Source of the DNA: a virus
IMG/VR virus record: IMGVR_UViG_3300009185_000108
Location: 1-23,685 of that record
Reading direction: 5' to 3' (one strand)
Length of the DNA: 23,685 bases
Position 1 is the first letter of the stretch, and the number at the start of each line of letters is the position of its first letter. Below, one piece after another: positions 1 through 18,564 of this stretch. The translations under genes and the position numbers were made by a program. The notes beneath the pieces were generated by a model. That model worked only from the letters and a program-made list of their open reading frames with translations. It was not told the DNA's origin and searched no databases.

Positions 1-3000
1 CAAGTCTAACTGGTACCACAGCAAGCGTCACAGGCAACGTTACAGGAAATTATTTTGTTGGCAATGGTTCAGCTTTAACTGGTATCATAGCATCAGCCGG
101 TGCAGCTATCACCAATGGCAACAGTAATGTCAGTGTAGCTGCTAATTCCAATGTCACAGTGGCTGTGACCAGCAGCACAATAGCCACGTTTGCCAGCACA
201 GGCGCTTATGTAACAGGCATAATCAGTGCCACAGGCAACATCACCGGCGGCAACGTGAGTGGTATAAATCTTGGTGGATCTCTGACCACTCCTGCTCAGC
301 CCAATATCACCAGTGTGGGCACATTGAGCAATGTGTCAGTCAGCGGCAACGTTGACGCTGGCAATTATCTCACAGGCGGTATTGTCAGTGCTGTTGGCAA
401 CATCACGGGTGGAAATCTAAGTGGTGCTAACATTGCAGGCACCTTGACCACTGCCAGCCAGACCAACATCACCAGCGTGGGCACATTGGGATCGTTGAGT
501 GTGACAGGCAATGTCACAGGTGGCAATTTGACCACAGGCGGTGCAGTCAGCGCCACTGGCAACATCACAGGTGGCAATATATTAGGCGGCGCCAATGTCA
601 ATGCAACCACCCACACAGGTAGCACAGTGAGCGTAACAGGCAATGTTACAGGTGGCAATTTGGTTGGCGGAAATATCAGTGGCACCTTGATAACCGCAGC
701 ACAAACCAACATCACCAGTGTGGGCACATTGACAGCATTGAGTGTGACGGGAAATGTGTCGGGCGGCAATCTAACCACAAGCGATCAAGTCAGTGCCACC
801 GGCAATGTTACTGGCAACTATTTCATCGGTAACGGATCACAACTAACTGGTATTGTGTCAAGTTACGGCAACGCCAATGTTGCGGCCAACTTGGCAGCAT
901 TTGGCTCTAACCCAATATCTACCTCAGGCAATATCACTGGTGGTAATCTAAATGCCACAGGATTGAGCCTGAGTGGCAATGTTGTAAGTGTATTAAATTC
1001 AACTGCCAACATCACCACCACTGCTAATATCAGCAGCAACTACTTTATCGGTAACGGATCACAACTAACTGGTATTATATCCAGTTATGGCAACGCCAAC
1101 GTTGCAGCCAACTTGGCAGCATTTGGCTCTAATCCAATATCAACTAGCGGCAACATCACAGGTGGTAACATACTAGGTGGTGCCAATGTCAATGCAACCA
1201 CGCACACAGGCACCACAGTGAGTGTCACAGGTGACATTACAGGTGGTAATTTATACACTGCTGGGTTGATCAGTTCAACCAGTAATGTGTTTGGCGGCAA
1301 CTTATCTACCACCGGGCAAGTGATTTCAACCAACACAGGCAGCACAACCACCGGCAGCGGACAAATGTACCTAAATGGTGCAACAAACAACAGGATTGAT
1401 TTCAACACCAATGGAACTGCTGCACCTGCATTTACCACACGCAGTACAGGAACCAAGATTGTGTTGTATCCTAACATTGGCATTGCAGCGGCCGACTATG
1501 CTCTGGGTATTGAATCAGGCGCATTGTGGTCAGGCGTGCCAGACTCGTCTAACAGTTTCAAATGGTATGGTGGAACTACTCAAGTAGGATCGTTGAGCGG
1601 TACAGGTGTGTTGTCTATTGCAGGCAACATCACTGGCGCTAACATAAATGCCACAGGATTGAGCCTGAGCGGCAACGTTGTGAGTGTATTGGTATCAGCT
1701 GCCAACATCACTACCACTGCCAATATCAGCGGTGGTTATATCTTGGGCGACGGATCACAACTAACTGGTATTGTATCCAGTTATGGCAATGCCAATGTTG
1801 CAGCCAACTTGGCAGCATTTGGCTCAAATCCCATATCAACCTCAGGCAATATTACCAGCGGCAACTTGAATGCTGCAGGACTGAGTCTGAGTTCAAATGT
1901 GGTCAGTGCATTGGTATCAGCAGCTGATATCACTACCACTGCCAATATCTCAGGTGGATATATTTTAGGTAACGGAAGTCAGTTGACTGGTATTGTATCC
2001 AGTTATGGCAATGCCAATGTTGCAGCCAATTTAGCAGCATTTGGCACCAACCCCATATCAACCTCAGGCAACATCACTGGTGGTAATCTAAATGCCACAG
2101 GATTGAGTTTGAGTGGCAATGTTGTGAGTGTGTTGGTATCAGCTGCCAACATCACTACCACTGCCAATGTTAGTGGTGGTTATATCTTAGGCAACGGAAG
2201 TCAGTTGACTGGTATTGCTTCCAGTTATGGCAATGCCAATGTTGCAGCCAACTTGGCAGCATTTGGCTCTAACCCCATATCTACCTCAGGCAACATCACT
2301 GGTGGTAATCTAAATGCCACAGGATTGAGCCTGAGCGGTAATGTGGTCAGTGTATTGAATTCAACCGCTGCTATCACAACCACTGCTAATATCTCTGGCG
2401 GTAACATACTTGGTGGTGCCAATGTCAACGCCACCACACACACTGGTACCACTGTGAGTGTGACAGGTAATATCACCGGTGGCAATGTCAACACCAACAC
2501 CATAGTTGGCACCAGCACCACAATCCGATCAACCGGCGCGTTGAACTTCAGTGCCACAGGAAATATTGAAGTCAACAGCACATACATCAATAACTTACTG
2601 GATCCAGTGCAAAATCAAGACGCTGCTACCAAATATTATGTTGACACTGTAGCTCAAGGCCTGCATGTACATGACTCGGCCAACTTGGCATCCACAGCTG
2701 ACCTAGCCACATACACCGGTGCCACAGTCACATACAACAACGGCGCATCAGGAGTTGGTGCCACACTGAGCTTGGTTGGTAACACATTGACCACGTTGGA
2801 TGGTACAGCAATTCCTGGCTCTGCCAGTACCAGGCTGTTGATTAAAAATCAAGGCAATGCTGTACAAAATGGCATGTACAATTATACCAGCAGCAGTTTG
2901 TTGACCAGAAGTACAGACTTTGACACTTCGGCTGAAGCTGCTGGTGGAGACTTCTTGTTTGTGACATCGGGAGCCACACTAGCCGACACTGGTTGGGTGC

Positions 3001-3962
3001 AAACCACAGACAATCCCACATTGGGTACCAGCCCAATTGTGTTCTCACAATTCTCTGGTGCTGGCACATACACCGCTAACACCGCAGCTGGCCTGGTATT
3101 AAATGGTACTGTATTCAGTGCAAAAACTGACAACATCAGTACCACATTCGATGGCACTGGCAATATTGTGGTCAAGGCTGGAGCTCAACTGACCACACCC
3201 AACATTGGTGCTGCCACCGGTACCAGCGTAAGTGTAACAGGCAACATCACCGGTGCCAACATCATTGGTATTGTTGCTGCTGGTGCAAACACAATTACCA
3301 CAACTGGCAACATCACCGGCGGCAATATGTTGTTTGGATCTGGTATTATCAGTGGCACAGGCAACATCACCGGCGGCAATGTAAATGCTGCCGGATTGAG
3401 TTTGTCAAGTAATGTTGTTTCAGCAATCAATTCTGCTGCCAACATCACAACCACTGCCAATATTGCCGGTGGAAATATAATTGGTACTCATGTGGGCAAC
3501 GTAACTGGTACTACAGTCAGTGTGAGTGGCAATATCACAGCTGGCAACATCTTGGGTGGAGCCAACGTCAATGCCGTCACACATACAGGTGCCACTGTGA
3601 GTGTCACAGGCAATATCATCACTGGTGGCGGCATAGTGTCACGTGTGGTTTCAATTGCAGATGCTGCATCAGTCACCATCAACGCTGACACAACCGATCT
3701 GGCTACTCAAACCAATACTCAAGTCACAGGCACATTGACTATCAATGCTCCAACAGGAACATTGGCAAACGGACAAAAAGTCACATTTAGGTTGCAATCA
3801 TCCAATGTGCAAACTTTTTCTTGGAATGCAGTGTTTGCCGGATCAACAGATCTAAGTTTACCAACAACATCCAGCGGCAGTAGTAAATATGATTATATGG
3901 GATTTATATACAACTCAACTGCTACCAAATGGCAACTGCTGGCTAAAAACTTTGGATTCTAA
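1..3962 (+). CDS. Repetitive tail fibre / adhesin protein (5' end outside window)
   Basis: The frame is open from the first base to TAA at 3960-3962. The GTG at 159 is internal, because the repeat pattern continues upstream of it, so the gene is cut by the window edge and at least 1320 codons are visible. The protein is almost entirely Gly/Asn/Thr/Ser-rich beta repeats of the type SVTGNITGGN and TNITSVGTL, typical of phage tail fibres. Parts visible: a 74-residue repeat (nt 828-1163 and 1746-2411); a non-repeat beta module at about nt 1330-1620 (NRIDFNTNG, TKIVLYP, FKWYGGTTQV); a module at about nt 2580-3150 opening with DAATKYYVDTVAQGLHVH, common in T4-like fibres; and a C-terminal domain from about nt 3640, ending in KWQLLAKNFGF. 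There is no signal peptide or membrane segment. The likely role is a distal fibre or host-recognition protein. This rests on composition and known fibre motifs, and the receptor is unknown. It sits 16 nt upstream of a second giant fibre gene. Confidence 0.85.
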   Translation, partial: SLTGTTASVTGNVTGNYFVGNGSALTGIIASAGAAITNGNSNVSVAANSNVTVAVTSSTIATFASTGAYVTGIISATGNITGGNVSGINLGGSLTTPAQPNITSVGTLSNVSVSGNVDAGNYLTGGIVSAVGNITGGNLSGANIAGTLTTASQTNITSVGTLGSLSVTGNVTGGNLTTGGAVSATGNITGGNILGGANVNATTHTGSTVSVTGNVTGGNLVGGNISGTLITAAQTNITSVGTLTALSVTGNVSGGNLTTSDQVSATGNVTGNYFIGNGSQLTGIVSSYGNANVAANLAAFGSNPISTSGNITGGNLNATGLSLSGNVVSVLNSTANITTTANISSNYFIGNGSQLTGIISSYGNANVAANLAAFGSNPISTSGNITGGNILGGANVNATTHTGTTVSVTGDITGGNLYTAGLISSTSNVFGGNLSTTGQVISTNTGSTTTGSGQMYLNGATNNRIDFNTNGTAAPAFTTRSTGTKIVLYPNIGIAAADYALGIESGALWSGVPDSSNSFKWYGGTTQVGSLSGTGVLSIAGNITGANINATGLSLSGNVVSVLVSAANITTTANISGGYILGDGSQLTGIVSSYGNANVAANLAAFGSNPISTSGNITSGNLNAAGLSLSSNVVSALVSAADITTTANISGGYILGNGSQLTGIVSSYGNANVAANLAAFGTNPISTSGNITGGNLNATGLSLSGNVVSVLVSAANITTTANVSGGYILGNGSQLTGIASSYGNANVAANLAAFGSNPISTSGNITGGNLNATGLSLSGNVVSVLNSTAAITTTANISGGNILGGANVNATTHTGTTVSVTGNITGGNVNTNTIVGTSTTIRSTGALNFSATGNIEVNSTYINNLLDPVQNQDAATKYYVDTVAQGLHVHDSANLASTADLATYTGATVTYNNGASGVGATLSLVGNTLTTLDGTAIPGSASTRLLIKNQGNAVQNGMYNYTSSSLLTRSTDFDTSAEAAGGDFLFVTSGATLADTGWVQTTDNPTLGTSPIVFSQFSGAGTYTANTAAGLVLNGTVFSAKTDNISTTFDGTGNIVVKAGAQLTTPNIGAATGTSVSVTGNITGANIIGIVAAGANTITTTGNITGGNMLFGSGIISGTGNITGGNVNAAGLSLSSNVVSAINSAANITTTANIAGGNIIGTHVGNVTGTTVSVSGNITAGNILGGANVNAVTHTGATVSVTGNIITGGGIVSRVVSIADAASVTINADTTDLATQTNTQVTGTLTINAPTGTLANGQKVTFRLQSSNVQTFSWNAVFAGSTDLSLPTTSSGSSKYDYMGFIYNSTATKWQLLAKNFGF
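828..1163 (+). repeat. Tandem 222-bp coding repeat, first array (1.5 units)
   Basis: The block beginning GNGSQLTGI followed by SSYGNANVAANLAAFG starts at 828 and again at 1050, exactly 222 bp (74 codons) apart. The second copy keeps the pattern to about 1163 and then switches to another repeat class (GGANVNATTHTG). Differences between copies are mostly at third codon positions. Confidence 0.85.
1746..2411 (+). repeat. Tandem 222-bp coding repeat, second array (3 units)
   Basis: Three consecutive 74-codon units start at 1746, 1968 and 2190 with an exact 222-bp period. They are the same repeat as at 828 and 1050. A partial unit (from NATGLSLSGNVVSVLVSAAN) lies just upstream at about 1645-1745. 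The array ends at 2411, where GGANVNATTHTG begins. The near-identical DNA suggests copy-number change or gene conversion by recombination. Confidence 0.87.
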
Positions 3963-3978
3963 TAAGGCAACATAAGCA

Positions 3979-6900
3979 ATGGCAAATCGTTATTGGCGTG
4001 GCGGTACTGGCACGTGGAATACCACATCAACAACCAACTGGTCCACCTCATCCAACGGCCCCGGTGGTGCAAGTGTGCCAACTACAAATGACAGTGTTAT
4101 ATTTGATCAAGCAGGTACTTATTCAGTCACAATGACAGGTGCATTAGCTTGTTTCCAGTTTAGTGTGACGGCCGGCACTGTTTCATTCATAACTGGAACT
4201 GCACCAACTATTGCCATTTCGGGTGGTATGAGTTTGATTGCAGGTACAGTTTGGTCTAGCACTGGTACTGTTACATTCAATGCTCCATCATTTGGTCAAA
4301 CTATTACAACTAATGGAACAGCAATATTTGGTTCTATCATAATTAACTCACCGGGTGGTGTTTACTTGGGCAGCGCATTAACGACCAGTGTTAGTCAGAC
4401 TGTCACCCTCACCAGTGGTTTTCTTAATCTTAGTTCATTCGGATTTGATCTAACCACTGGCGCATTCATTTCAAGTAATACCAACACTCGTTCAATTGCA
4501 TTTGGTACAAATAATATTGTACTGTCATCAGTTACAGCAGCATTGCAGATGGCCACTCTTACTGGTTTCACATACACAGGTACCGGTGGTTTCAGAGCAA
4601 CAATGTCAAGTGTAAGAACTTTTACTTGTGGGACAACAGGTGGCACGTCGGCTAATGCACCCAATCTTACATTAGTGTCAGGCGCATCTGTAGCAACAAT
4701 AACCACTGGCAGCTGGTTTAACAAACTCGATTATGGAACAACCACGTTCACACAAGCAGCATCCACACTGAACGTGAACTCAATAACGCTGTCATCCACT
4801 GGCACGTACACAGCATTGATTTTGAATTTGGTTGGCACTGGCACCGTGACCTACAACGGAAAAACCACAGCGGCTGTAACATTGCTGGCTGGCACACCCA
4901 CAATTGCTGACACTGTCACGTGTACAACGTGGACTGTGAATGGACCCACGTTCAACTTTACCTCAGGAACAATAAACCCTTCCACCAGCTTTGTTGTGAC
5001 CTCAGGTGGTTTCACCCTCAATGGAGGTACACTGGGCGCTGTGCCAACATTCACTCACACAGCCGGAGCGGTAACATTCAATGCCAGTTATACAATGACT
5101 GTGACTGGTACGTATACATTAACTGCTGGTACACTGACACTGGCTGATGGGGTGACTTTGTCAACAGGTATATTCAGTTCGAGTAATACCAACACACGGG
5201 CAATTGCGTTTGGCAGTGCCAGTGCAGGAAACATCAATTTGACTCATACCACGGCCGCAACAGTGGTATTGAGCATGGCCACTGTGACAGGATTCACATA
5301 CACTGGGCCAGGTGGATTCACTGTGGCGGCCATGGGCAACACAAGAACGTTCACATTTGGAACTACAGGTGGTTCTACATCAAATGCAGTGAACTTGACA
5401 TTTACCACAGGTGCCAGCATTGCAACATTGACCACTGCCGGTTGGTTTAAAAATTTAAATTTTGGAACAACATCGTTCAATCCAGGAACAACTACATTAA
5501 ACATTGCCGGAGCTCTCACACTATCGTCAACTGGTACGTATACTACCACAACCATCAATCCTCTCGTCACAGCAACATATACATTTAATAGTGCATCACT
5601 GGGACCGTTTACAGTTAACACAGTTGGTGTCACTATCACAATGGGCAGTGCTGGTGGGTGTACCATACTTACAGTAACGCAGGGAACTGTTGATTTAAAC
5701 GGTCAAAATTTTACTTGTTCAAGTACAGCTACAGTTAACAGTGGCGGAACATTATCAAACTTTAGTACGTTTGCATGTACCACATTTACCAACAACGGAA
5801 GTACTATTTCATTGGCAAGCGGTGCAATCAATGCCAGTGTTAGTATTGTACAAAGCTCTGGATCATTTACCATTGGTGCAGCAACTATTGGTGCTACGCC
5901 AACATTCACACACACAGCAGGAACTGTGACATTTAATTCCAGTCAAAGTTTGGCTGTGACAGGCACATATACATTCACAGCAGGTACATTGACATTGGCT
6001 GATGGGGTGACTTTGAGCACAGGTATATTCAGTTCAAGTAATACTAACACACGGGCAATTGCGTTTGGTAGTGCCAGTGCAGGCAACATCAATCTTACTC
6101 ACACCACTGCCACAACGGTGGTATTGAGTATGGCTATAGTTACTAATTTTACATACACAGGCCCCGGTGGATTTACTGTGGCCGATATGGCCAACACAAG
6201 AACACTCACATACGGAACTACAGGTGGTTCTACATCAAACGCAGTGAACTTGACATTTACCACAGGTGCCAGTGTGGCAACATTGACCACTGCTGGTTGG
6301 TTTAAAAATTTAGATTTTGGAACAACAAGTTTCAATCCAGGAACAACCGCATTAAACATTGCGGGAAATCTCACACTGTCATCAACTGGTACTTACACTG
6401 GATTGACATTTACTCCACTGACCAGTGCTACATACACGTTTAACGGAGCATCTGTCGGAGCAATTGCATTCAATTATTCGGGCATTACTATCACCATGGG
6501 CAGTGCTGGAGGATGCTCAACACTCACAATGACAGCCGGTACCATTGATTTTGCAGGTTACAATTTTACTTGTTCGGGTACAGCAACATACAACAGTACC
6601 GGAACACTGTCAAACTTTGGCACATTTGCATGTACCACATTTACCAACAACGGTGCTACATTATCGTTGACCAGTGGCGCAATCAACGCCAGCACCAGCT
6701 TTGTACAAAGTTCAGGATCGTTTACCATTGGTGGCTCAGCAACCTTAGGTGCAACACCGTTGTTCACACACACAGCAGGAACAGTGACATTCAATTCCAG
6801 CCAAAGCCTGGCTGTGACAGGCACATACACGTTTACTGCTGGCACGTTGAATATTGATGATGGTGTGACTTTGAGCACAGGTATATTCAGTTCAACCAAC

Positions 6901-9900
6901 GCAAACACTCGCACAATCAATTTTGGTCTCACGACCAATCCAGGTTATATTTCTTTAACACATACCACAGCCGCAACTGTGGTGTTGAGCATGGCCATTG
7001 TGACTGGACTCACTGTGAATGCTCTAGGTAAATGGGACGGTAATGTATCTTATGGTCCTACACAAGTAGCAGGGGGATTTCGATCAGAAACAACCGTGAC
7101 AAAAACATTCACCTGTGGTACCACAGGTGGCAATTCTACCAATGCTCCTTGTTTATATGTTACTGGCACCGGTGGTACACAACTTCCTACATTTACCACA
7201 GGCAGCTGGTTTGGTGATTTTAGTATATACAATTTGTCGACCATGACAATCGCTGCTACCACATTGAATATAAATTCTTTATATGGTCAAGGTTATTATG
7301 TTAGTCTTAATACCACCAGTATGGGTTTGAACTTTGTAGGGTCAGGATTTATCAACAATCAAGGTGGTATAGATAACACATTTGGTATACTGGGTGCAGT
7401 CACAATAAATCACGCTGGCACAACTGCCATGATATATGGTATATGTGGAGCAACAACTGTGGCTTTAACTGCTGGAACACTGGAATGCAGATACTGGGCC
7501 AACGGTCCATTTAATGGAATTAGTCAATTTGCGCTAACAGGTGCTGTGACTCAAACAGGTGGCACCTGGTATAACAATGCTGTGTATATAAACACCTGCA
7601 CCACATACACAATCAATGGTCCAACTATAAGTTTTGACAGTGGTAGTATAACTGCTACTACTAGCATGGTACTAACTTCTGGATCATTCACGTTCAATGG
7701 CGGTACAATATCAGCCTTACCCTTGTTCACACACACAGCTGGTACTTTGACAATCAAAAATAGTCAGACTGTTTCATTGGCAGCCACCGGCACATACACA
7801 TTTACAGCAGGATCTTTAATATTAGAAGATGCTGCTGTGTTAAACACTGGTATTTTTAGTTCATCAGGCACAGGAACTAGGTCAATCACATTTGGTACTA
7901 CTGCAACTTATCCTGCATTTATTAACCTTACACATACCACAGCAGCAACCACTGTGTTGAGTATGGCCACAGCCACTGGATTCTCATGTACAGCATCATA
8001 CAACCCTGCTATTGGTCAAGGGTATAGTGGATTTAAATCTGATATGCCTGCTACGCAAACATTTGTGTTTGGAACAACAGGCGGGTCAATAAGTAATGCC
8101 CCTAATCTTAAAATAAACGGTAGTTCAACACCTACGATCACTACTGCTAGTTGGTTCAACATACTTGATTTTTCAGCTTCTCAAACATTTACATTGCCAG
8201 CAACCAGTCTTAACTTAAATTCACTAATACCTGCTTATGGTTATAACACCGTAGTACTTACCGGGCTTACTGCCAACATGCGTGGTCCAGGATTTTTGTT
8301 GGCTACTGGTGCTTCTTCTATTGGGCCGTTAGTTATCAATAATAGTGGTACAACTCAACTAGTATCAGGATTTTTTCCTCCATATTATGGAGCAGGAACT
8401 TTTTACTGCACTACACTAACCATCACAGCAGGTAATTTTGACGGTGGAGTACAGAAATTTACAGGATCTTGTACAGCAGGAGTACTAACAACTACTGGAT
8501 CTCCTACACTTGTTCCGGGTAGTAACTTATACGATAGTGTTGGTGTTCCTTACGGGTATAGTGGTAGTGTCGTAAGTGGATCAAGCAACACATGGGTATT
8601 GGGTGATCTTACTACATCGTTTGCTTCAAAAGATTTATGGGTCGGCGGTTCTGAATCATATCTAACTCCTTCATATTTAACTTGTTCTGGTGCTGTTACG
8701 TGGACTGGAGGGACATTAACCAATTTTGGCAGCACCACTGCTTATATATACGGTGATGGAAAAAATAGCATAACATGGACTTGCACCACATTTACAGTTA
8801 ATGGATCAACATTCAATCACACACTTGAAAATGGAGGAACAATAAATCCTTCAACCAGTTTTGTACTAACCGCAGGATCATATACCTATAATGGTGGTGT
8901 GTTGGGTGCTGTGCCACTATTCACTCACACAGCAGGCACAGCGACATTTAATTATAGCTATTCACTGACCACCACAGGCACATACACACTAACAGCCGGC
9001 ACATTGACGCTAGCTGCTGGGGTGACGTTGGCCACAGGTATATTCAGTTCATCAGGTGCCGGTACTCGCGCAATTGGATTTGGTGCTAGTGTTACCTCAG
9101 GCTCTGTGGCATTCAACGGTGTTGATCAGTATTTGACAGTACCAAGTAGTACAGCACTTACATTGGGCACAGGTGATTTTACTGTAGAGGCCTGGATAAA
9201 TCCAATAACCGTTGCTGGAGGTGCGAATCAATTTAATATCATAACTTTAGGTAGTCTTCAATTTTACGTAAGTGACGGAACTCTTTATTTCTATGATGTC
9301 AATGTCAATGCCGGTGGCGGCACAGTAGTAATAAATCAATGGCAACATTTAGCGGTTACAAGAATTGGTACTTTAGTAACTGCCTATATCAATGGTATTC
9401 CATATATTTATACCTCTAGTGGTGTAAATTTTATAGCAGCAACAACATATATCGGTAATAATCTTGGCGGAGCATTAGCCTGGGGATATATCAGCAATCT
9501 ACGTGTGGTAAAGGGAGTATCGGTATACACAATAGCAGCATTTGCTCCTCCCACAACTGCGTTGACTGCGGTTACTGGTACACAATTGTTAGTAGATGTA
9601 GCATCATCAGGTGCATATTTGACTGATGGAAGCACCAACAACTTTACCCTTACTCCAGCTGGAACTGTAACGTACAATGCTAGTACACCTGTCAGTACTG
9701 GTGGTAGTTTATACTTTCAAAGTGCGTCATCACGTTTAACTTTACCAAGTTCTAGTGCATTCGATATAACTGGTGATTTTACCATTGAAGCCTGGGTACA
9801 ATCTACCGCCTTTACGGCAGGAGGTCAAGGTATATTAGATACCAGAGTGGCTGCTCAAACATCAGCACCGTGGGTATTTTATATTACCCCCGCTGGCAAC

Positions 9901-12117
9901 GTAGGATTTTTTACTGGAACCTATTATGCAAGTACATATCCTATTGTGTTAAATGTTTGGACACATGTTGCAGTCGTGCGTTCAGGATCAATACTTACAT
10001 TTTTCATCAACGGTGTTCAAAGTGGTAGCACATACATTGGTACAGGCGCAATAAGTCCAGGCACTACCAGTGCAGTCATTGGTACAAAAGATTATGTCAT
10101 CAACGCAAATTTTAGAGCAATCAATTACATTACCAATCTGAGATTTGTCAATGGTACTGCACTATATGCACCAAACGCAGGTTCATTTACCCCACCAACT
10201 GGGCAATTGGCCAGCACACAATCAGCAAACACCAACGGCAATCCGTCGTCTGCTATCACAGGTACACAAACCAGCTTGTTATTGAATACAGTAAACGGTG
10301 CTAATTTTTTAACAGACAGTTCAACATACACCGCTACTGTTACCAACAATGGTACTGCAACCACTTCGTCTAGGAATCCTTTTGCAGGATATGTTAATCT
10401 CACGCACACTACTGCGGCTACAGTAGTACTAAACATGGCAGCACTAGGTGGATTCACTTATACTGGCAATGGCGGATTCGCTGTGGCTGAGATGACCAAC
10501 ACTAGAACGTTCAGTGTGGCCAGCACATCGGGTGGTTCAACAACCAATGCAGTTAATTTGTATTTTACTTCGGGTGCCAGTGTGGCAACTTTGACCACTG
10601 CTGGTTGGATCAACAATCTTGATTTTGGATTTACATCGTTTAATCCTGGCACAACCACTTTAAATATCAACGGTGGTTTAGTATTATCATCCAGCGGAAC
10701 TTATACAGGCCTGACTCCTTCGTTCCGTTCAGACAGTACACTTACTAGTAATGGTAAAACTGTTGCAGCTTTAGTAGTCAACGCTCCAACATTTACATTA
10801 ACAACAAATGATGCAACATCAATCACAGGAGCATTGACATTGACTGCAGGAGCATTGGTTGCTCCTTACGACATAACCAGTGGTAGCTTTGCTAGTGCTG
10901 GGCCATATTCTCGATCAATAACAGGATCGACCACAACATACACCATAACAGGTGCCGGTGCCACAGCATGGAGTTTTGCATCAACCGGAAGTGTGTTGTT
11001 AAACGGTACTAGTCAGTATCTAAGCGTGGCCAATAATGCTGCTTTTGCATTTGGCTCAGGACCGTTTACGGTTGAATGTTGGTTTTATCAAACTTCTTAC
11101 GCTGCTTCCAGCACTGGTAATAGCTTAGTAATGTTGTGGAAAGCTACTACAGGGCGAGCATTTAACTTTTATGTCAGACCCGATGGAGCATTAGAAGCAG
11201 ATTGGAATACTTCTTCAGGTATGGTTGGTGGTGCTACTAGTTTAAATACTTGGTACCATGCAGCCTTTGTTAGTGATGGTACTAATTTTTATCTATACCT
11301 TGACGGTGTACAAGTTGCTACTGCCGCAGCAGCAACAATTGTGGCTAGCACAGATCCGCTGTTTATTGGTGCCAACAACGATTCAACAAGTCCAGTTTGG
11401 CGTTTTCGAGGATATATTACTAATGTTAGATTAGCAAAAGGAGTAGCAGTTTACACTGGTAACTTTACCGTGCCAACTGCACCGTTGTTGCCAACGCAAA
11501 GTTCTAGCACAAACATAAGCGCCATCACAGGAACTCAAACTTCTTTGTTGTTGTCCACACCGTCTAACAGTTTTTTAACAGATTACTCAGTCAATAACTT
11601 TACTGTCACAAACACCGGCACAGCCACCGCCAACATTCTTTCACCGTTTGCTGTGACTTCGCCGGGTATAACATTTACCAGCTTCACCCTCAGCATGACT
11701 GCTGCTACCGCAAAAACATTTGCCGGCGGCGGTGCAACTTATCCAACACTCAATCAAGGTGGCGCAGGGGCATTGACTATATCTGGTAACAATTCATTTG
11801 GTGATTTGACTGCGACCACAAGACCCAGCACAATTACATTTACCATCTCAACAACACAGACATTCACTAACTTTACTTTGTCCGGCACAGCTGGCAATTT
11901 GGTCACAATCAACAGCAGTTCTGCAGGAACTCAAGCCACTTTGAGCAAAACCAGTGGTACTGTGAGTGTTGGTTATTTGAGCATTCGTGATTCCAATGCA
12001 ACAGGTGGCGCAAACTGGGATGCAGGAGCAACATCGAGCAATGTGAGCAACAACACAGGATGGATATTTGGTGGTTATGTGTTCACTGCTGGCGGCGACT
12101 TTTTTGCGTTCTTCTAA
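3979..12117 (+). CDS. Giant tail fibre / adhesin with beta repeats and three LamG-like domains
   Basis: This 2712-residue protein begins MANRYWRGGTGTWN, an N-terminus I associate with large structural proteins of aquatic phages. A weak AAGG at 3964-3967 is the only ribosome-binding site. The body has Thr/Gly/Ser-rich beta repeats; a marker motif (TLSTGIFSSSNTNTR-like, then AIAFG, LTHTTAATVVLSM, TTAGWFKNLDFGTTSFNPGT) recurs six times with spacings of 699, 855, 858, 969 and 1188 bp. Two LamG-like (concanavalin-A-fold) domains follow at residues about 1708-1905 and 1908-2130, shown by GDFTVEAWI, WQHLAVTR, TAYING and ISNLRVVKG. The interrupted repeat then resumes at about 2135. A third LamG-like domain (about 2337-2555) interrupts a C-terminal module ending in a TLSKTSGTVSVGYLSIRDSN segment. 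The likely role is carbohydrate or surface binding at the tail tip. No catalytic motif is visible. The gene ends 3 nt from the convergent NUDIX gene. Confidence 0.85.
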   Translation: MANRYWRGGTGTWNTTSTTNWSTSSNGPGGASVPTTNDSVIFDQAGTYSVTMTGALACFQFSVTAGTVSFITGTAPTIAISGGMSLIAGTVWSSTGTVTFNAPSFGQTITTNGTAIFGSIIINSPGGVYLGSALTTSVSQTVTLTSGFLNLSSFGFDLTTGAFISSNTNTRSIAFGTNNIVLSSVTAALQMATLTGFTYTGTGGFRATMSSVRTFTCGTTGGTSANAPNLTLVSGASVATITTGSWFNKLDYGTTTFTQAASTLNVNSITLSSTGTYTALILNLVGTGTVTYNGKTTAAVTLLAGTPTIADTVTCTTWTVNGPTFNFTSGTINPSTSFVVTSGGFTLNGGTLGAVPTFTHTAGAVTFNASYTMTVTGTYTLTAGTLTLADGVTLSTGIFSSSNTNTRAIAFGSASAGNINLTHTTAATVVLSMATVTGFTYTGPGGFTVAAMGNTRTFTFGTTGGSTSNAVNLTFTTGASIATLTTAGWFKNLNFGTTSFNPGTTTLNIAGALTLSSTGTYTTTTINPLVTATYTFNSASLGPFTVNTVGVTITMGSAGGCTILTVTQGTVDLNGQNFTCSSTATVNSGGTLSNFSTFACTTFTNNGSTISLASGAINASVSIVQSSGSFTIGAATIGATPTFTHTAGTVTFNSSQSLAVTGTYTFTAGTLTLADGVTLSTGIFSSSNTNTRAIAFGSASAGNINLTHTTATTVVLSMAIVTNFTYTGPGGFTVADMANTRTLTYGTTGGSTSNAVNLTFTTGASVATLTTAGWFKNLDFGTTSFNPGTTALNIAGNLTLSSTGTYTGLTFTPLTSATYTFNGASVGAIAFNYSGITITMGSAGGCSTLTMTAGTIDFAGYNFTCSGTATYNSTGTLSNFGTFACTTFTNNGATLSLTSGAINASTSFVQSSGSFTIGGSATLGATPLFTHTAGTVTFNSSQSLAVTGTYTFTAGTLNIDDGVTLSTGIFSSTNANTRTINFGLTTNPGYISLTHTTAATVVLSMAIVTGLTVNALGKWDGNVSYGPTQVAGGFRSETTVTKTFTCGTTGGNSTNAPCLYVTGTGGTQLPTFTTGSWFGDFSIYNLSTMTIAATTLNINSLYGQGYYVSLNTTSMGLNFVGSGFINNQGGIDNTFGILGAVTINHAGTTAMIYGICGATTVALTAGTLECRYWANGPFNGISQFALTGAVTQTGGTWYNNAVYINTCTTYTINGPTISFDSGSITATTSMVLTSGSFTFNGGTISALPLFTHTAGTLTIKNSQTVSLAATGTYTFTAGSLILEDAAVLNTGIFSSSGTGTRSITFGTTATYPAFINLTHTTAATTVLSMATATGFSCTASYNPAIGQGYSGFKSDMPATQTFVFGTTGGSISNAPNLKINGSSTPTITTASWFNILDFSASQTFTLPATSLNLNSLIPAYGYNTVVLTGLTANMRGPGFLLATGASSIGPLVINNSGTTQLVSGFFPPYYGAGTFYCTTLTITAGNFDGGVQKFTGSCTAGVLTTTGSPTLVPGSNLYDSVGVPYGYSGSVVSGSSNTWVLGDLTTSFASKDLWVGGSESYLTPSYLTCSGAVTWTGGTLTNFGSTTAYIYGDGKNSITWTCTTFTVNGSTFNHTLENGGTINPSTSFVLTAGSYTYNGGVLGAVPLFTHTAGTATFNYSYSLTTTGTYTLTAGTLTLAAGVTLATGIFSSSGAGTRAIGFGASVTSGSVAFNGVDQYLTVPSSTALTLGTGDFTVEAWINPITVAGGANQFNIITLGSLQFYVSDGTLYFYDVNVNAGGGTVVINQWQHLAVTRIGTLVTAYINGIPYIYTSSGVNFIAATTYIGNNLGGALAWGYISNLRVVKGVSVYTIAAFAPPTTALTAVTGTQLLVDVASSGAYLTDGSTNNFTLTPAGTVTYNASTPVSTGGSLYFQSASSRLTLPSSSAFDITGDFTIEAWVQSTAFTAGGQGILDTRVAAQTSAPWVFYITPAGNVGFFTGTYYASTYPIVLNVWTHVAVVRSGSILTFFINGVQSGSTYIGTGAISPGTTSAVIGTKDYVINANFRAINYITNLRFVNGTALYAPNAGSFTPPTGQLASTQSANTNGNPSSAITGTQTSLLLNTVNGANFLTDSSTYTATVTNNGTATTSSRNPFAGYVNLTHTTAATVVLNMAALGGFTYTGNGGFAVAEMTNTRTFSVASTSGGSTTNAVNLYFTSGASVATLTTAGWINNLDFGFTSFNPGTTTLNINGGLVLSSSGTYTGLTPSFRSDSTLTSNGKTVAALVVNAPTFTLTTNDATSITGALTLTAGALVAPYDITSGSFASAGPYSRSITGSTTTYTITGAGATAWSFASTGSVLLNGTSQYLSVANNAAFAFGSGPFTVECWFYQTSYAASSTGNSLVMLWKATTGRAFNFYVRPDGALEADWNTSSGMVGGATSLNTWYHAAFVSDGTNFYLYLDGVQVATAAAATIVASTDPLFIGANNDSTSPVWRFRGYITNVRLAKGVAVYTGNFTVPTAPLLPTQSSSTNISAITGTQTSLLLSTPSNSFLTDYSVNNFTVTNTGTATANILSPFAVTSPGITFTSFTLSMTAATAKTFAGGGATYPTLNQGGAGALTISGNNSFGDLTATTRPSTITFTISTTQTFTNFTLSGTAGNLVTINSSSAGTQATLSKTSGTVSVGYLSIRDSNATGGANWDAGATSSNVSNNTGWIFGGYVFTAGGDFFAFF
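5146..6858 (+). repeat. Two consecutive long coding repeats of 855 and 858 bp
   Basis: The segment starting at the GAT codon of DGVTLSTGIFSS recurs at 5146, 6001 and 6859. The first 400 or so bases of the units at 5146 and 6001 are very similar in DNA, and many differences are synonymous. More divergent copies of the marker occur at 4447, 7828 and 9016, and a copy without its front end resumes at about 10387. Confidence 0.8.
9100..10386 (+). other. Two LamG-like domains inserted in a repeat unit
   Basis: Residues about 1708-2134 of the giant fibre hold two back-to-back LamG-like domains. Each opens with a (G)SxxF/Y strand followed by YLTVPS- or LTLPSS-like residues. Each contains a TGDFT(V/I)EAW strand, a W-x-H-x-AV-x-R segment, a (Y/F)ING hairpin, an ISNLR or ITNLR strand and a TDxS ending. 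Upstream is the front half of a fibre repeat (TRAIGFG) and downstream is its back half (YVNLTHTTAATVVLNM). Confidence 0.75.
10987..11643 (+). other. Third LamG-like domain of the giant fibre
   Basis: Residues about 2337-2555 contain GSVLLNGTSQYLSVAN, FTVECWFYQ, WYHAAFVSDG, FYLYLDGVQ, ITNVRLAKG and a TDYSVNNFTVTNTGTAT end. The order matches the two earlier LamG-like domains. It lies between YTITGAGATAW and TSFTLSMTAATAKTF, which read as two halves of one C-terminal module. Confidence 0.75.
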
Positions 12118-12120
12118 ATG

Positions 12121-12543
12121 TCAGCTGCGCCGAAATGCGTTTTCAATTGATTCCAGTTTGGTCTGGATGCTTTCAAGATTCACAGTGCTCCACAGGCCCG
12201 GATGCATTGGGCGAGGCCATGTGCCTTGATCTATCCAGGCATAACCCAGATGTTCGTCATTCAGCACTGGTATAAATTCTTCATCAACCACACACACCCA
12301 GGTGTGATACTCAAACATACCATCAGCTGATGTGAATTTTTCCAGCGGTACCAGTCGTGTGTAAGCAGGAAAACTGCCTAGTTCTTCCACACATTCACGT
12401 TCCATACCGCCCAGCAATGTTTCGCCAGTTTCTATCTTGCCGCCAGGCAGGCCCCATGAACCCGGATGCTTGATATCGTTGCGTAGCAGGTACAAGTATC
12501 TTCCGGTGCCTTGACTAAGGAACCAAACCCCCACTGCTTTCAA
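12121..12543 (-). CDS. NUDIX hydrolase
   Basis: This encodes about 140 residues (MKAVGVWFL if the TTG start is used). The NUDIX box is complete at residues 35-56: G-x5-E-x7-R-E-C-x-E-E-x-G, read as GKIETGE, then RECVEELG. NUDIX enzymes hydrolyse nucleoside diphosphates linked to another group; in phages they may act on nucleotides, NAD-type cofactors or RNA caps, and the substrate cannot be told from this sequence. I place the start at TTG 12543-12541 because it overlaps the gp15 stop (TTGA), has GGAG about 9 nt upstream and begins exactly at the first beta strand of the fold. ATG at 12597 or 12690 would add 18 or 49 residues with no NUDIX similarity, encoded within gp15. The position implies translational coupling to gp15. 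The gene is convergent with the giant fibre gene, with 3 nt between the stops. Confidence 0.85.
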   Translation of the reverse strand: MKAVGVWFLSQGTGRYLYLLRNDIKHPGSWGLPGGKIETGETLLGGMERECVEELGSFPAYTRLVPLEKFTSADGMFEYHTWVCVVDEEFIPVLNDEHLGYAWIDQGTWPRPMHPGLWSTVNLESIQTKLESIENAFRRS

Positions 12544-13928
12544 AGTACCAGACTCCAGGTGCCGCCGGGGTATATTCCTTGATAACTTTTGATCCATTGT
12601 GTTCCAACCCATTGATATTGTATGCTGGTGGTGATGTTGGTAACGTACTGAATGTCTGTGTTGCCTTCTGCATTGAACACCACATGCCAATAGTTACCAC
12701 TGTACTCAATTATGTCATTGGCTTTGGCAATCAGTGGACGACCATTTTCTCCAATCCAGGCCACGGCAGGATATTCATTGTCATAAGAACCAGTGGCCTC
12801 AGTCAACAGATATCTCACACCTTCCAAATTACTGTCGTCTGGCGCAGGTGCCCAGGTCAATGGATTCACAATAGCATCAATTGGAGCTAGGGTGTTTTGT
12901 GGAGCAGTGTCAGGGTCCACATCAAACAACAAGAATCGATTGTCTGAAGGATCCAATACTATGGTTCCTATCACTTCGGATTCATCTGCTTGTACCAGGC
13001 GTATTTGACTGATACCTGGGCGCAACACACCATAAACTCCAATCACTGCTGTCCATTGTAAATTGCTGTTGGACACAATCTGAGTGGGAGTCAATGACTC
13101 ATTGCCTGGTTCTTCTGCTAGACTTTGTTGCTGTAAGCATTGTAATTTGTTGTTGATCAACACTGCTGCCCAATTGTACGGAGTAATCTGTTGTCTTGTG
13201 CCCAGCAACAGATCATTGTTTTCTATGGCATTGTGAAAATCACCATTGGCATCATACATGCTGGCAACCACACGTTCTACCACACCTAGTTTTTTAACCT
13301 TGACCGGTGAACTGATCCAGATTGGAATGCCAAATTTCAAGCTGGCAATGTCAATGGGATTTTCTGTGCCTTGGGGGATAGTCCTTGACGTCCAGGTACA
13401 ACTGTCCAGCTCTACCACACTCAAACTGGTCCAGTCAAGATAGTTGTCTGTGCTTTGTATTTCCAAACTGGGATTGAACAGGGTCAAAATTTGTTCTAAC
13501 AGTTGTAGTTTTTGATTGGTGTTGCTGGTCCAAATGTCCAGGGTAATACCCAGTCTGTAAGGCACAGGCATTAGACGTTCAATGGTAAATGCATTTCCTT
13601 GAGTGGTTTCATAAGTGTCAGTGGCACTGTCATAGGTTCGTTGTCGAATTGACACTGAATTCACATGATAGGGTTCTTGCATTCTAGGACGATCGTAGTC
13701 CAAAGATGAAATATAAAAAGTCATCAGGGGTGTGCTGGGCAAACTGCTGGCTGAGTTTTCCTGCAATATGGTCTGCACATTTCTAGTGGCATCGCCATAT
13801 CTTACTGGTACTCGTAGTAATGCAGCTTGTTCTCCGTCGCGCCCATATTGAACTTGAAAGCCAGATACCATTCTGGTAAACTGCAACAAGAAACGTCGTA
13901 TCTGTTCATCATAAAAGAAATTTTGCAT
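12540..13928 (-). CDS. 15: Tail sheath stabiliser / tail completion protein, T4 gp15-like
   Basis: This 462-residue protein corresponds to T4 gp15, which caps the top of the sheath and tube and joins the tail to the neck. The N-terminus NFFYDEQIRRFLLQFTRMVS, then LLRVPVRYGD, parallels the gp15 start (FYN..FRRY, then RVPITYAS). The segment MPVPYRLGITLDIWT, followed by LLEQILTLFNPSL, parallels SPIKMIYELSIFT and VEQILPYFQP of T4. T4 gp15 is about 272 residues, so the last 190 or so here are extra. They include Trp/Tyr-rich short strands (YPAVAWIG, YQWVGTQWIKSYQG) and are not recognised as a known domain. The gene starts 3 nt after the gp14 stop and its TGA overlaps the NUDIX start, so gp14, gp15 and NUDIX look like one transcript. 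Homology was judged from remembered T4 sequence. Confidence 0.85.
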   Translation of the reverse strand: MQNFFYDEQIRRFLLQFTRMVSGFQVQYGRDGEQAALLRVPVRYGDATRNVQTILQENSASSLPSTPLMTFYISSLDYDRPRMQEPYHVNSVSIRQRTYDSATDTYETTQGNAFTIERLMPVPYRLGITLDIWTSNTNQKLQLLEQILTLFNPSLEIQSTDNYLDWTSLSVVELDSCTWTSRTIPQGTENPIDIASLKFGIPIWISSPVKVKKLGVVERVVASMYDANGDFHNAIENNDLLLGTRQQITPYNWAAVLINNKLQCLQQQSLAEEPGNESLTPTQIVSNSNLQWTAVIGVYGVLRPGISQIRLVQADESEVIGTIVLDPSDNRFLLFDVDPDTAPQNTLAPIDAIVNPLTWAPAPDDSNLEGVRYLLTEATGSYDNEYPAVAWIGENGRPLIAKANDIIEYSGNYWHVVFNAEGNTDIQYVTNITTSIQYQWVGTQWIKSYQGIYPGGTWSLVL

Positions 13929-13931
13929 ATC

Positions 13932-15344
13932 TTAACTGGATTTTTGTCCTGGTTGTGTGAGCGGAAATGGTTTGGGTGGCAAGTTACCGCCCTCGTCACC
14001 ATTGTCAGCTCGAGGTTTGAGCATTTCACTGAGACTTTGACGACTAGGTATATTACCCATATCAGTAGTAGGCACAGTGTATGTATTGTTTACAAAGGTA
14101 CTGTGTAATATATCGTTGGCAGAACCATTGTTGAGATTGGTACGTACTGCATCTTCCAGTTTGACCCAACGAACACCATCCCACCGGAACAATCTGTTTG
14201 GTTGATAATCTAGTCTCAATGCATAATCTCCTAGCGATGGATTCAGCGGGAAAGTCACGCCAGGTGTGACTGGCAATCCGTTGGGTGCCTCATCCGAACC
14301 AGTCAAGTAACCCACTGTGTAACCAAAAGATGTTGGTGTGCCAGTTAGATAACCTTCAGTATAGCCCAGTGATTGTGGTGTCACATCCATCCCGCCTTGT
14401 GTGCCGTCCACTGTGTTATCGCTGCCAGCATACAATGTGGTAGAGTTGGCTGGTTGTAAATTTTCAGTAGGCAAAATATAAAACTTGCTGATATCATAAC
14501 CACTGAGTGGCACTTCGATATCGGCCTGTGTGAGTATGGCTTCATTGATGGCGGTATCTTTGGTTCTGGTACCTTGCAAGTCAGAGATGGTAGATGGAGT
14601 ATATTCTCTCCAATAATTGGTATTGGTAATGTCCGTGCCGGCTGGTGTATTGGCTCTGGCTTGATAATAAGTATTGCCGTAGTTGACCACGCTGCCGGTG
14701 GGGTAAAAATTACCGTTGTCCCAGATCTGTTCGCTTACCATGGGTTTGTTTGTGATAGTGTTAAATTCTTGTGAGTCTGTGAGCGGGGTGGCTTTGACTC
14801 TCCACAAGTGAGGTAACCACGTCACACTAAATCCTTCGCTGGCATAAGCAGCATCTTGGATGACATAGTATCTGGCCAGCCCTGTGGGTAAATCGGCTTT
14901 CAGTGGATGAAAATCTTTTAAATTGGGTATTTCCAAAACATCGCCATTCATCAGTTTGCGCCCGAACGTATCAATCATTTTGTTGTAGTGGAACGTGATG
15001 AATAGTGTATCGTTGTTTAGAAACAGTCCAAATTGGGTAAGATCAAAGTCAATATCTTGTGCGTTATACACACCTCGCATGACATACACATCTGGGTCAT
15101 ATTGCCGATCTCGATTTTCTAACAGCAGCAAATCTTGTATGTTCAGCGGGCTTAGTGTTTCGTAAATTGGCAAAGTAGCGTCGGCATTGCCCGAAAACGC
15201 TGAATCAGTACCACCAGTTTCGGGACCTAGATATTTGTGACAATACAAATCCAAGCCGCCAACGGTGTACATTTCTGCAATGGTGCGATCCAGGAATTGG
15301 TAATCCCTAGTTCGATTGGTACGGTACATGGAAAGTCTGGGCAT
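13932..15344 (-). CDS. 14: Neck protein, T4 gp14-like
   Basis: This 470-residue protein resembles T4 gp14, which with gp13 closes the packaged head and forms the connector for the tail. Evidence: an early AEMYTVGGLDLYCHKYLGP segment (compare the MRGVECYYVPREYV region of gp14), then FGLFLNNDTLFITFHYNKM, then a GDVLEIPNLKD strand at the place of the T4 GDLIYFP strand. It is immediately followed by gp15. T4 gp14 is about 256 residues. The extra length holds a CBM5/12-like module (about 208-248: IWDNGNFYPTGSVVNYGNTYYQA, with NYWREY at its end), a doubled SxGYTxGYLTG motif (about 326-350) and a DYALRLDY / LFRWDGVRWVKL hairpin (about 367-398). The start at 15344 has no ribosome-binding site. ATG at 15329 (MYRTNRTRDY) is the alternative. 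Confidence 0.75.
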   Translation of the reverse strand: MPRLSMYRTNRTRDYQFLDRTIAEMYTVGGLDLYCHKYLGPETGGTDSAFSGNADATLPIYETLSPLNIQDLLLLENRDRQYDPDVYVMRGVYNAQDIDFDLTQFGLFLNNDTLFITFHYNKMIDTFGRKLMNGDVLEIPNLKDFHPLKADLPTGLARYYVIQDAAYASEGFSVTWLPHLWRVKATPLTDSQEFNTITNKPMVSEQIWDNGNFYPTGSVVNYGNTYYQARANTPAGTDITNTNYWREYTPSTISDLQGTRTKDTAINEAILTQADIEVPLSGYDISKFYILPTENLQPANSTTLYAGSDNTVDGTQGGMDVTPQSLGYTEGYLTGTPTSFGYTVGYLTGSDEAPNGLPVTPGVTFPLNPSLGDYALRLDYQPNRLFRWDGVRWVKLEDAVRTNLNNGSANDILHSTFVNNTYTVPTTDMGNIPSRQSLSEMLKPRADNGDEGGNLPPKPFPLTQPGQKSS

Positions 15345-15351
15345 AGTATGT

Positions 15352-15359
15352 TATTTATG
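15352..15359 (-). promoter_or_regulatory. T4-late-type promoter element CATAAATA before gp14
   Basis: The minus strand reads CATAAATA, one base from the T4 late -10 consensus TATAAATA. Only 7 nt separate it from the ATG at 15344 and no Shine-Dalgarno sequence fits between, so the message may be leaderless. If translation starts at ATG 15329 instead, the distance is 22 nt, matching the plus-strand late elements in this window. Confidence 0.5.
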
Positions 15360-15365
15360 GGCAGG

Positions 15366-15394
15366 TTGACTGGAAATTCTGCTTCAGTTATAAT
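15366..15394 (+). promoter_or_regulatory. Sigma70-type promoter TTGACT-17-TATAAT
   Basis: The -35 hexamer TTGACT (15366-15371) and a perfect -10 TATAAT (15389-15394) are separated by 17 bp. The expected transcription start is about 15401, exactly on an in-frame ATG. The next in-frame ATG (15425) has AAAGGA 6 nt upstream, so the message would carry a 24-nt leader with a good ribosome-binding site. This is the best sigma70 promoter in the window. Confidence 0.75.
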
Positions 15395-15424
15395 TACAAC
15401 ATGACAATCACCAAAGGAAAACCC

Positions 15425-16570
15425 ATGGCAGTGACTGCAAAAGCCGCAATCAAATCAATGAATCCGCGTAGCCCGGATACCAAATACGTGGGACACGAAC
15501 CTGAATGGCGTGTGCAGCCTGAACAAGATCGCAACCGAATCAGCGCAATGAGCAATGCGTTTGGTTGGTACAATTATTTTTACGGTAAAAAAGAAGCCAA
15601 AGAAATGATTGTGACCTATTTGGAGCTGCACAAACGAGCAAAAGATGCTAAAAAAATACGCTCGTTGACTGACAGTCAAATTCGACTGACCACAGGTTGG
15701 CTGTGCCGCATGACCATGATGGGCTTGGAATTGACTGATCAAGAACAGATCAAACTGGACAATCTCATTGACGACTTGTTGGCAATCAAAGACCAAGCAG
15801 CAGCAGAAGTGGCAGAAGTTGACTCTGTTGCAAAACCCAACATCCAAGATCGTCTAAGAGAAAAGATGAAAGAATGTGCCGGTGAATTGGAAGGCATGCT
15901 GGATGATTTTGTCACAGCAGGTTGCAAAATGTCAGCTGACTGGAAACCCATTGCTCAGATCCGTGGTATGAACGTGGCACCACAAATGGTGTATCACATT
16001 GCAGACATCTGGAAAACTAGGTTATCACACTTTGAAAAAGTAGTGGCTGGCAAAGATGCACAGCTGGTTGAAGGTTATTCGCACTTGTCCAAGGTACAAC
16101 TGCGTAACATTGTGAAGTTTTGCGAGTCTGTGATTTCAGATTGCGGTGCTTATGTACAGATCAAGAAAGTAGAACGCAAGCCACGCAAGGTCAAACCTAT
16201 CAGTCCAGAGAAAAAAGCAGCCAAGTTCAAACACTGTGTGGAATTTGCTGAACTCAAGCTAAAAGGCCTGTCGGCTGCTGCTCTAGTGGACAAGAGCGAG
16301 GCTTGGTTGTATGATACCAAAAAACGCAAACTGATCCATGTGGTAGCAGACAGTCATGCTGGCAGTTTTACCATCAAGAGCAGTTCAATTATTGGATTCT
16401 CTGTGAGCGAGACACAGCAAAAAACACTGCGTAAGCCAGCAGAAACTTTGAAAGCACTACAGGCCGCAGGCAAACCAGCTGCTAGAAAGATCTTCAAAGA
16501 CTTGACCACAACTGAAACTCAGTTCAATGGTCGAAGCAATGAGAATTTGCTAGTGCTCAAAAGCTGGTAA
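15425..16570 (+). CDS. Conserved phage protein of unknown function
   Basis: This encodes 381 residues from ATG 15425 (MAVTAKAAIKSMNPRS). That start has AAAGGA at 15413-15418 with 6-nt spacing; an in-frame ATG at 15401 would add 8 residues and lies on the predicted transcription start. It resembles proteins I have seen in T4-like phages of aquatic bacteria, but I cannot name a function. Visible features (numbered from 15425): a TKYVGHEPEW motif near residue 20; an aromatic YNYFYGKKEAKEM segment; charged helical segments over about 65-150; a Lys/Arg-rich stretch (KVERKPRKVKPISPEKKAAK) near 250-265; and a C-terminal part with EAWLYDTKKRKLIHV, SSIIGFSVSETQQKTLRKP and a final NLLVLKSW. There is no signal peptide, membrane helix or catalytic motif. 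The sigma70-type promoter suggests early or middle expression. Basic composition would allow nucleic-acid binding, but this is only inference. Confidence 0.85.
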   Translation: MAVTAKAAIKSMNPRSPDTKYVGHEPEWRVQPEQDRNRISAMSNAFGWYNYFYGKKEAKEMIVTYLELHKRAKDAKKIRSLTDSQIRLTTGWLCRMTMMGLELTDQEQIKLDNLIDDLLAIKDQAAAEVAEVDSVAKPNIQDRLREKMKECAGELEGMLDDFVTAGCKMSADWKPIAQIRGMNVAPQMVYHIADIWKTRLSHFEKVVAGKDAQLVEGYSHLSKVQLRNIVKFCESVISDCGAYVQIKKVERKPRKVKPISPEKKAAKFKHCVEFAELKLKGLSAAALVDKSEAWLYDTKKRKLIHVVADSHAGSFTIKSSSIIGFSVSETQQKTLRKPAETLKALQAAGKPAARKIFKDLTTTETQFNGRSNENLLVLKSW

Positions 16571-16573
16571 ATA
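16566..16573 (+). promoter_or_regulatory. Late-type element GGTAAATA before gp13
   Basis: GGTAAATA matches TATAAATA at the last six positions and lies 22 nt before the gp13 ATG, the same distance range as elements upstream of 17406, 20153 and 23611. It overlaps the stop codon of the preceding gene. It is weaker than the element before gp18. Confidence 0.4.
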
Positions 16574-16595
16574 AGGGGGAACGGAGTTCCCCCTT
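16573..16595 (+). promoter_or_regulatory. Perfect hairpin carrying the gp13 ribosome-binding site
   Basis: AAGGGGGAAC (16573-16582) and GTTCCCCCTT (16586-16595) form a perfect 10-bp stem with loop GGA. The only Shine-Dalgarno-like sequence, GGAG (16583-16586), sits in the loop and closing pair, 9 nt before ATG 16596. The stem therefore ends directly at the start codon. No T-tract follows, which argues against a simple intrinsic terminator. Confidence 0.7.
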
Positions 16596-17357
16596 ATGTC
16601 TGAAAAAACACTACCACAACTCAAACAAGATCTTGTAGAATACTGTAGCCTCATGTTGGGCGCTCAGATCATTGACCTTGAGTTGGATCCAGCACATTAC
16701 GAAGCAGCATATCAGCGAACTTTGGGTGTGTATCGGCAACGTGCCAATGCTGCATATGAAGAAGCCTACATCTTTATGGAGTTGATACGAGATCTCAACA
16801 TCTACACACTGCCGCAAGAAGTACAAAGTGTCAGGCAAATATTCCGCCGTACATTTGGTGATGCCACAGGCCCGTTTGCATCAAACTTTGATCCGTTCGC
16901 TCAAGCGTCGATCAACGTGTATCTCATGAATTTCAATGTGGCAGGTGGTCTTGCCACATACGATTTCTACAGCCAGTATGTGGAACTGGCAGCCAAGATG
17001 TTTGGCGGATTCATGAACTATACCTGGAATCCCGTAAACAAAAAACTGCAACTGATTCGTGATCCCAAAAATACCGGTGAAAATGTACTGATCTGGTGCT
17101 ATCAACTCAAGCCCGAAATCAACCTCTTGAGTGATTTTCAAATACAGCAATGGATCCGTGATTATATGGTAGCTGTGTGCAAAATGATCATTGGAGAAGC
17201 CCGTGAGAAATTTGGCACTATTGCTGGCCCACAAGGTGGCGGCACATTAAACGGCACTGCTATGAAAACCGAAGCCCAGGCACAGATGGATGCCAAGGTG
17301 TTAGAATTGGTCAACTATGTTGATGGGTCTCAACCGATCACCTTTGTGATTGGCTAA
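16596..17357 (+). CDS. 13: Neck protein, T4 gp13-like
   Basis: This 253-residue protein fits the gp13 neck (head completion) family. The N-terminus has a leucine-rich helix (LPQLKQDLVEYCSLMLGAQI) leading into IDLELDPAHYEAAYQRTL, the family's pattern of a short DVELT-type strand and a helix. It is followed by NIYTLPQEVQSVRQIFRRTF, matching the YxLPxxVxSVxxIFR region. The C-terminal part has KKLQLIRDP, ENVLIWCYQLKPEI and QQWIRDYMVAVCKMIIGEAREKF, also a typical gp13 order. The family partners with gp14 to close the DNA-filled head and bind the tail. In T4, gene 13 lies directly before 14 and 15; here gp14 and gp15 are on the other strand, with one unknown gene between. Translation begins right after the hairpin at 16573-16595. 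The assignment is from remembered family patterns. Confidence 0.75.
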   Translation: MSEKTLPQLKQDLVEYCSLMLGAQIIDLELDPAHYEAAYQRTLGVYRQRANAAYEEAYIFMELIRDLNIYTLPQEVQSVRQIFRRTFGDATGPFASNFDPFAQASINVYLMNFNVAGGLATYDFYSQYVELAAKMFGGFMNYTWNPVNKKLQLIRDPKNTGENVLIWCYQLKPEINLLSDFQIQQWIRDYMVAVCKMIIGEAREKFGTIAGPQGGGTLNGTAMKTEAQAQMDAKVLELVNYVDGSQPITFVIG

Positions 17358-17374
17358 GCCTCGTATAAAATGCC

Positions 17375-17382
17375 AATAAATA
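17375..17382 (+). promoter_or_regulatory. Late-type promoter element AATAAATA
   Basis: AATAAATA differs from the T4 late consensus only at the first base and lies 23 nt before ATG 17406, with GAGGAA in between as ribosome-binding site. Confidence 0.5.
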
Positions 17383-17405
17383 CACCTGTAGAGGAACAAC
17401 ACAAC

Positions 17406-18529: not shown

Positions 18530-18530
18530 G

Positions 18531-18559
18531 TTGCGTGTGTGCGTAGTGTGTGTTACAAT
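18531..18559 (+). promoter_or_regulatory. Sigma70-like promoter with extended -10
   Basis: TTGCGT (18531-18536), a 17-bp spacer and TACAAT (18554-18559), preceded by TGT, make an extended -10 promoter. The spacer is an alternating GT-rich tract. The predicted transcription start is about 18565-18567, on the ATG of the exonuclease gene itself, and no Shine-Dalgarno sequence is visible, so a leaderless message is possible. Confidence 0.55.
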
Positions 18560-18564
18560 ACACT

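Follow-up and report, generated by a model that had tools for sequence, protein, structure and literature searches.

Comparable domain arrangements in known systems

Ig-like domains are small beta-sandwich modules found as sporadic additions to the virion proteins of related phages. The phage protein described here differs from these additions in that its modules are LamG rather than Ig domains and lie within a beta-helix repeat; in other phages, the same socket holds a glycine-rich domain. A second point of comparison is the Hbp autotransporter (Escherichia coli hemoglobin protease), where side domains of the beta-stem can be replaced singly while the stem stays intact (PMC3521207). Hbp and other SPATE passengers resemble the phage protein in using a beta-helical stem as a scaffold for separate side domains. 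However, Hbp is a secreted bacterial protein with a protease function, these passengers are not arrays of like units in which sockets recur, and the likeness to the phage scaffold is one of structure.

Among phage receptor-binding proteins, related phages exchange fibre or spike domains and keep the remainder of the protein (Smug et al. 2023, PMC10684548). In the relevant part of that paper, the domains exchanged in the fibre and neck examples are C-terminal, whereas the modules described here lie inside the loops of repeat units; relative to the mosaicism described in that part, the present family adds empty, single and double states and several types of socket. In jumbo phages, laminin G3 domains have been linked to tail fibres and virion components (PMC7824862, relevant passage). 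The likeness to these phages extends from LamG/concanavalin-type domains to the tail sheath, which is also jumbo-like here, but that passage describes no insertion of LamG into a repeat unit. Host-recognition genes of marine phages are known to be variable (PMC3909814). Beta-helix side domains, phage domain mosaicism and jumbo phage lectin domains are thus known already. What is new here is that many similar units and recurring sockets occur together with a natural series of empty, single and double sites and with module swaps. Because the close relatives provide this series for one loop, together with swapped modules on the same rod, it can be asked directly how phages add or exchange binding domains while the fold of the fibre is kept, and which beta-helix loops tolerate whole domains. 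The socket loops are also natural permissive sites, of use in protein engineering.

A giant repeat protein with a split sixth unit

The window is the whole 23,685-nucleotide stretch that was analysed (IMG/VR record IMGVR_UViG_3300009185_000108, positions 1 to 23,685). A single open frame at 3979-12117 on the + strand, the strand of the repeat units and inserts listed for the window below, encodes a repeat protein of 2712 aa that is probably a virion adhesin or fibre. Neighbouring genes encode a tail sheath stabiliser, a virion structural protein, a head-tail adaptor and a tail sheath, the last of which is closest to those of jumbo phages Atu_ph07, Phosso and PA5oct (about 40%). The source is an uncultured contractile-tailed phage of the T4 superfamily, probably a jumbo phage. 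The place of the gene among tail and head-tail genes suggests that its product is part of the virion, and this setting, together with the LamG fold, points to receptor binding by the LamG domains. The upstream frame (3-3962), which is open at the left end of the window, is also repeat-rich ('SVTGNITGGN..') and has no Pfam or PHROG match.

A hidden Markov model (HMM) was built from the five intact units of the window. These copies of a unit of ~140 aa begin at aa 148 (4420-4818), aa 385 (5131-5550), aa 670 (5986-6405), aa 956 (6844-7302) and aa 1279 (7813-8238); in the fourth, the loop after model position 56 is 15 aa longer. Searches of Pfam and PHROG gave no match for the scaffold units, and two of these units gave no tblastn match among 50,697 phage records with the low-complexity filter on. 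A search for relatives in bacterial genomes gave 61 pattern matches, none of them confirmed. The LamG parts of the protein match phrog_3545, a group of unknown function.

The sixth unit is matched twice by the HMM, at aa 1675-1719 (model positions 1-44, i-E 3.8e-8) and at aa 2122-2246 (model positions 18-139, i-E 2.2e-36). In a two-piece alignment, which totals 198 bits versus 147 for the best single piece, model position 28 is the last before the split ('..TRSIAFG^..NIVLTHTT'). The N part (9001-9087, model positions 1-28) scores 45 bits, versus a best of 16 in 500 shuffles of this flank, and the C part (10387-10713, model positions 29-136) scores 153 bits, versus a best of 26 in 200 shuffles. 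Between them, at a position referred to as site A, lies an insert of ~433 aa (aa 1704-2136, 9088-10386, edges good to about 3 residues) with two tandem LamG domains that match Pfam Laminin_G_3 at 9118-9513 (E 2.8e-16) and 9727-10092 (E 5e-18). The protein has three Laminin_G_3 (PF13385) domains in all, scoring 54-73 bits, each above the curated cut-off of 27.6. The sequence-only reading had described the sixth unit as interrupted by about 430 residues with two LamG domains and then resuming, with flanks that fit one intact unit. The insert and its flanks agree with this description: the two parts meet at model position 28 and score far above shuffled sequence. The same reading held that the halves are directly joined in the other units; they are joined, but not directly, since a short variable loop of about 0-8 residues connects them. 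An intein or intron was considered for the insert and rejected on the basis of the open LamG-coding frame and the lack of visible splicing ends. No target-site duplication was seen at the DNA junctions of the insert, and a PDB sequence search with the insert gave weak matches only, mostly antibody chains, which were judged spurious.

A third LamG domain, absent from the sequence-only reading, splits the diverged terminal unit 7 at a different loop from that in unit 6 (after '..GATAWSFAS'; site C). The N part of unit 7 (10861-10983) was placed by alignment to related contigs L005, L091 and L083, all three of which are without LamG at this site. The insert spans aa about 2336-2561 (10984-11661; Pfam match 11002-11433, E 4.6e-22), and the C part (11662-11898) shares 67-93% identity with the corresponding stretch of L092, L005, L084, L091, L081 and L094. 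The two-piece score for unit 7 is 161, versus 109. Contigs L137 and L138 start approximately where the third LamG ends, with positions 1-152 preceding a 99% match to the C-terminal scaffold of the window; this start point possibly reflects population variation there.

Predicted structure of the scaffold

AlphaFold, run with 24 sequences, predicts the LamG-free region of L005 to be all-beta (pLDDT 89.4, pTM 0.86). The best structural matches of this model are all parallel beta-helices (Z 8-11); the matches include VacA p55, HMW1, Ag43, SPATE passengers (Hbp among them), phage tailspikes and PL6 lyases. Foldseek E-values for PDB matches of the scaffold model are weak (best 0.3), and so the matches suggest a general fold in common, not kinship. 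Searches of a viral structure library returned mainly uncharacterised phage proteins, the nearest being proteins of uncultured phages. The LamG-free scaffold is confidently predicted to be a parallel beta-helix, with stacked parallel strands along the rod.

In the L005 model, the turn that joins strands 99-103 and 110-113 contains site A, and sites B (described below) and C likewise look like turns between strands. In the window model, site A is flanked by strands 99-103 and then 540-543, which is the L005 pattern offset by the insert of ~430 residues. Since the same strands are found shifted by this length, the register of the rod is kept around the insert in the model; the comparison of flank and intact unit is one of strand register, not atomic superposition. 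The pLDDT is mostly 75-92 in the scaffold to either side of site A and mostly 26-65 in the inserts, which are poorly predicted. The proposal that a module had been placed in a loop without breaking the beta scaffold, for which a structural comparison with an intact unit had been suggested, is upheld by the fit of the flanks to one unit and by the register shared between the two AlphaFold models, with the geometry of the insert itself being a low-confidence prediction.

Recurrent insertion sites and the states of close relatives

A scan of 272 units from 65 unit-bearing frames, the window's included, found 236 to be intact. LamG detection in the open reading frames of relatives used hmmsearch --max; default hmmsearch overlooked LamG domains in some of them. 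Five units have LamG inserts at site A (window, L091, L085=L127, L081=L089 and L094), and every known insert at this site is LamG. The site A loop is 18-20 aa long in L079, L083 and L106, which indicates that it tolerates length changes. At site B (model positions 72-85), LamG is found in L006, L082, L094 (twice), L102 and L093, and is replaced by a Gly_rich_2 domain (PF21722/phrog_4474) in L087 (15740-16624) and L099 (8711-9508). LamG occupies site C in the window, L079, L106, L092, L082 and L140; most relatives are empty there, with LamG-less 'inserts' after model position 30/31 read as a borrowed neighbouring unit and counted as empty.

Close relatives provide a natural control at three orthologous units, where site A holds no LamG in L005, one in L091 and two in the window, and the protein flanks are 66-87% identical. 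L005 is collinear with the window, has both site A and site C empty, and shares 66-85% protein identity with it over the compared scaffold stretches; L091 has its single LamG at site A and an empty site C. At the DNA level, the window and L091 are 82-91% identical over most of the flanking fibre and neighbouring genes, and in the neighbouring genes they are closer to each other than either is to L005. LamG is therefore not a fixed part of the fold at this site, given the empty L005, the single copy in L091 and the large majority of intact units. Of the two kinds of relative that the sequence-only reading had proposed to look for, those with an intact repeat at the site were found (L005), and those with another domain were found at site B but not at site A.

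Exchange of modules at site C

Direct evidence for modular swapping, which the sequence-only reading had suggested, came from contrasting pairs of relatives at site C. Between L079 and L106, the flanks are 82% and 99% identical but the LamG domains only 52%. Conversely, the LamG domains of L079 and L092 are 87% identical, with flanks at only 52% and 59%. In L083, the flanks are 76-78% identical to those of L079 and site C is empty. Mosaicism is thus seen both as related scaffolds with diverged modules and as the converse (L079/L106, L079/L092; L005/L091/window). DNA identity between L079 and L106 drops from 82-97% to 33-53% across the LamG core; inside the final 60 residues of the module it climbs back to 95-98%, and the profile of the window against L092 has the same shape. 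Identity shifts sharply near the module edges, and the start and last ~50-60 residues of the LamG module are more conserved than its core. The module ends are thus shared and the core differs, but conservation of the ends could come from structure rather than from recombination. On a tree of the 3' flank, the LamG state of site C must change 6 times, and well-supported branches force at least 3 of these changes; this tree is built from few columns, has many unresolved forks, and its labels missed L102 and L173, both with LamG close to site C. These data give good support to modular gain, loss and swapping of the inserted domains.

Proposed mechanism and alternative explanations

The explanation favoured here, and considered probable, is that the protein, a giant adhesin or fibre, is built of beta-helix repeats whose turns act as sockets for exchangeable lectin-like modules, and that recombination moves these modules and so alters sugar recognition. 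In this model, the short inter-strand loop of a repeat could be replaced by a self-contained module (LamG, or a glycine-rich domain at one socket), the ends of which would return near both strand ends, so that the rod keeps stacking around it. Related fibre genes would recombine, partly inside modules, leading to modules being gained, lost or exchanged, and with conserved module ends, one crossover on each side would swap the binding core with the rod untouched. The likely benefit would be an altered range of surface sugars recognised by the fibre. The route by homologous recombination, the closeness of the module ends and selection for host range are all inferred. Since the same loops of relatives are empty or hold a different domain, the viruses appear to swap probable host-binding parts with the rod undisturbed. 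More tentatively, these genes may represent a family of giant beta-helix adhesins of phages that has not been described before, with a size of up to about 6,600 residues and, in one relative, 25 units. Every repeat of such a protein would have defined sockets, conserved module ends would allow homologous exchange of the core, and zero to several lectin or glycine-rich domains would be combined along the fibre.

An origin of the split by misjoining of low-complexity and LamG-like repeats in metagenome assembly, is very improbable. The gene is rich in repeats, and L137 and L138, which are 99% identical downstream, start only about 150 bases upstream of their match. However, the independent contig L091 reproduces both outer junctions, with window positions 6817-9201 and 10249-10715 aligning across them, which indicates that the split is not an assembly accident; moreover, no stop codon interrupts the 433 codons of the insert, and the same split recurs in other contigs. 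The site A LamG might instead be ancestral in this lineage, an old fixed feature that is decaying and has been lost by L005 and other relatives. Taken alone, the three close relatives are compatible with a loss in L005 as well as with a gain in the other two, but the closer relationship of the window and L091 in neighbouring genes favours gain in their common branch. Together with the predominance of intact units in the scan and the placement of site A LamG in different units of different genes, this makes ancestral presence improbable.

The interpretation that deserves most weight among the alternatives, while still unlikely, concerns function rather than history. The LamG inserts could be structural spacers or decorations, with a part in, for example, the stiffness of the fibre, contacts between subunits or unspecific adherence to particles, and not determinants of host range. 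No ligand is known for the LamG domains, and the existence of LamG-free relatives implies that the module is dispensable for the gene. On the other hand, the module core is more diverged than the surrounding scaffold and has been swapped between backgrounds, which is what a recognition surface would be expected to show, and lectin-type domains have been reported with tail fibres in jumbo phages (PMC7824862, relevant passage).

LamG-rich open frames in other contigs

Several other contigs have long open frames with multiple LamG domains. In L087, a 6659-aa open frame (2-19978) has ~25 repeat units, three LamG domains near the C-terminal end and a glycine-rich insert. L007 has a seven-LamG open frame (6924-12464) upstream of a LamG-free scaffold gene (14584-17634) in the same phage. 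The 5611-aa open frame of L053 (3387-20219) has about 23 LamG domains, of which two neighbouring ones rank among the best matches of the LamG pair in the window (40% and 47%); the L053 array is possibly a distant kind of donor for this pair.
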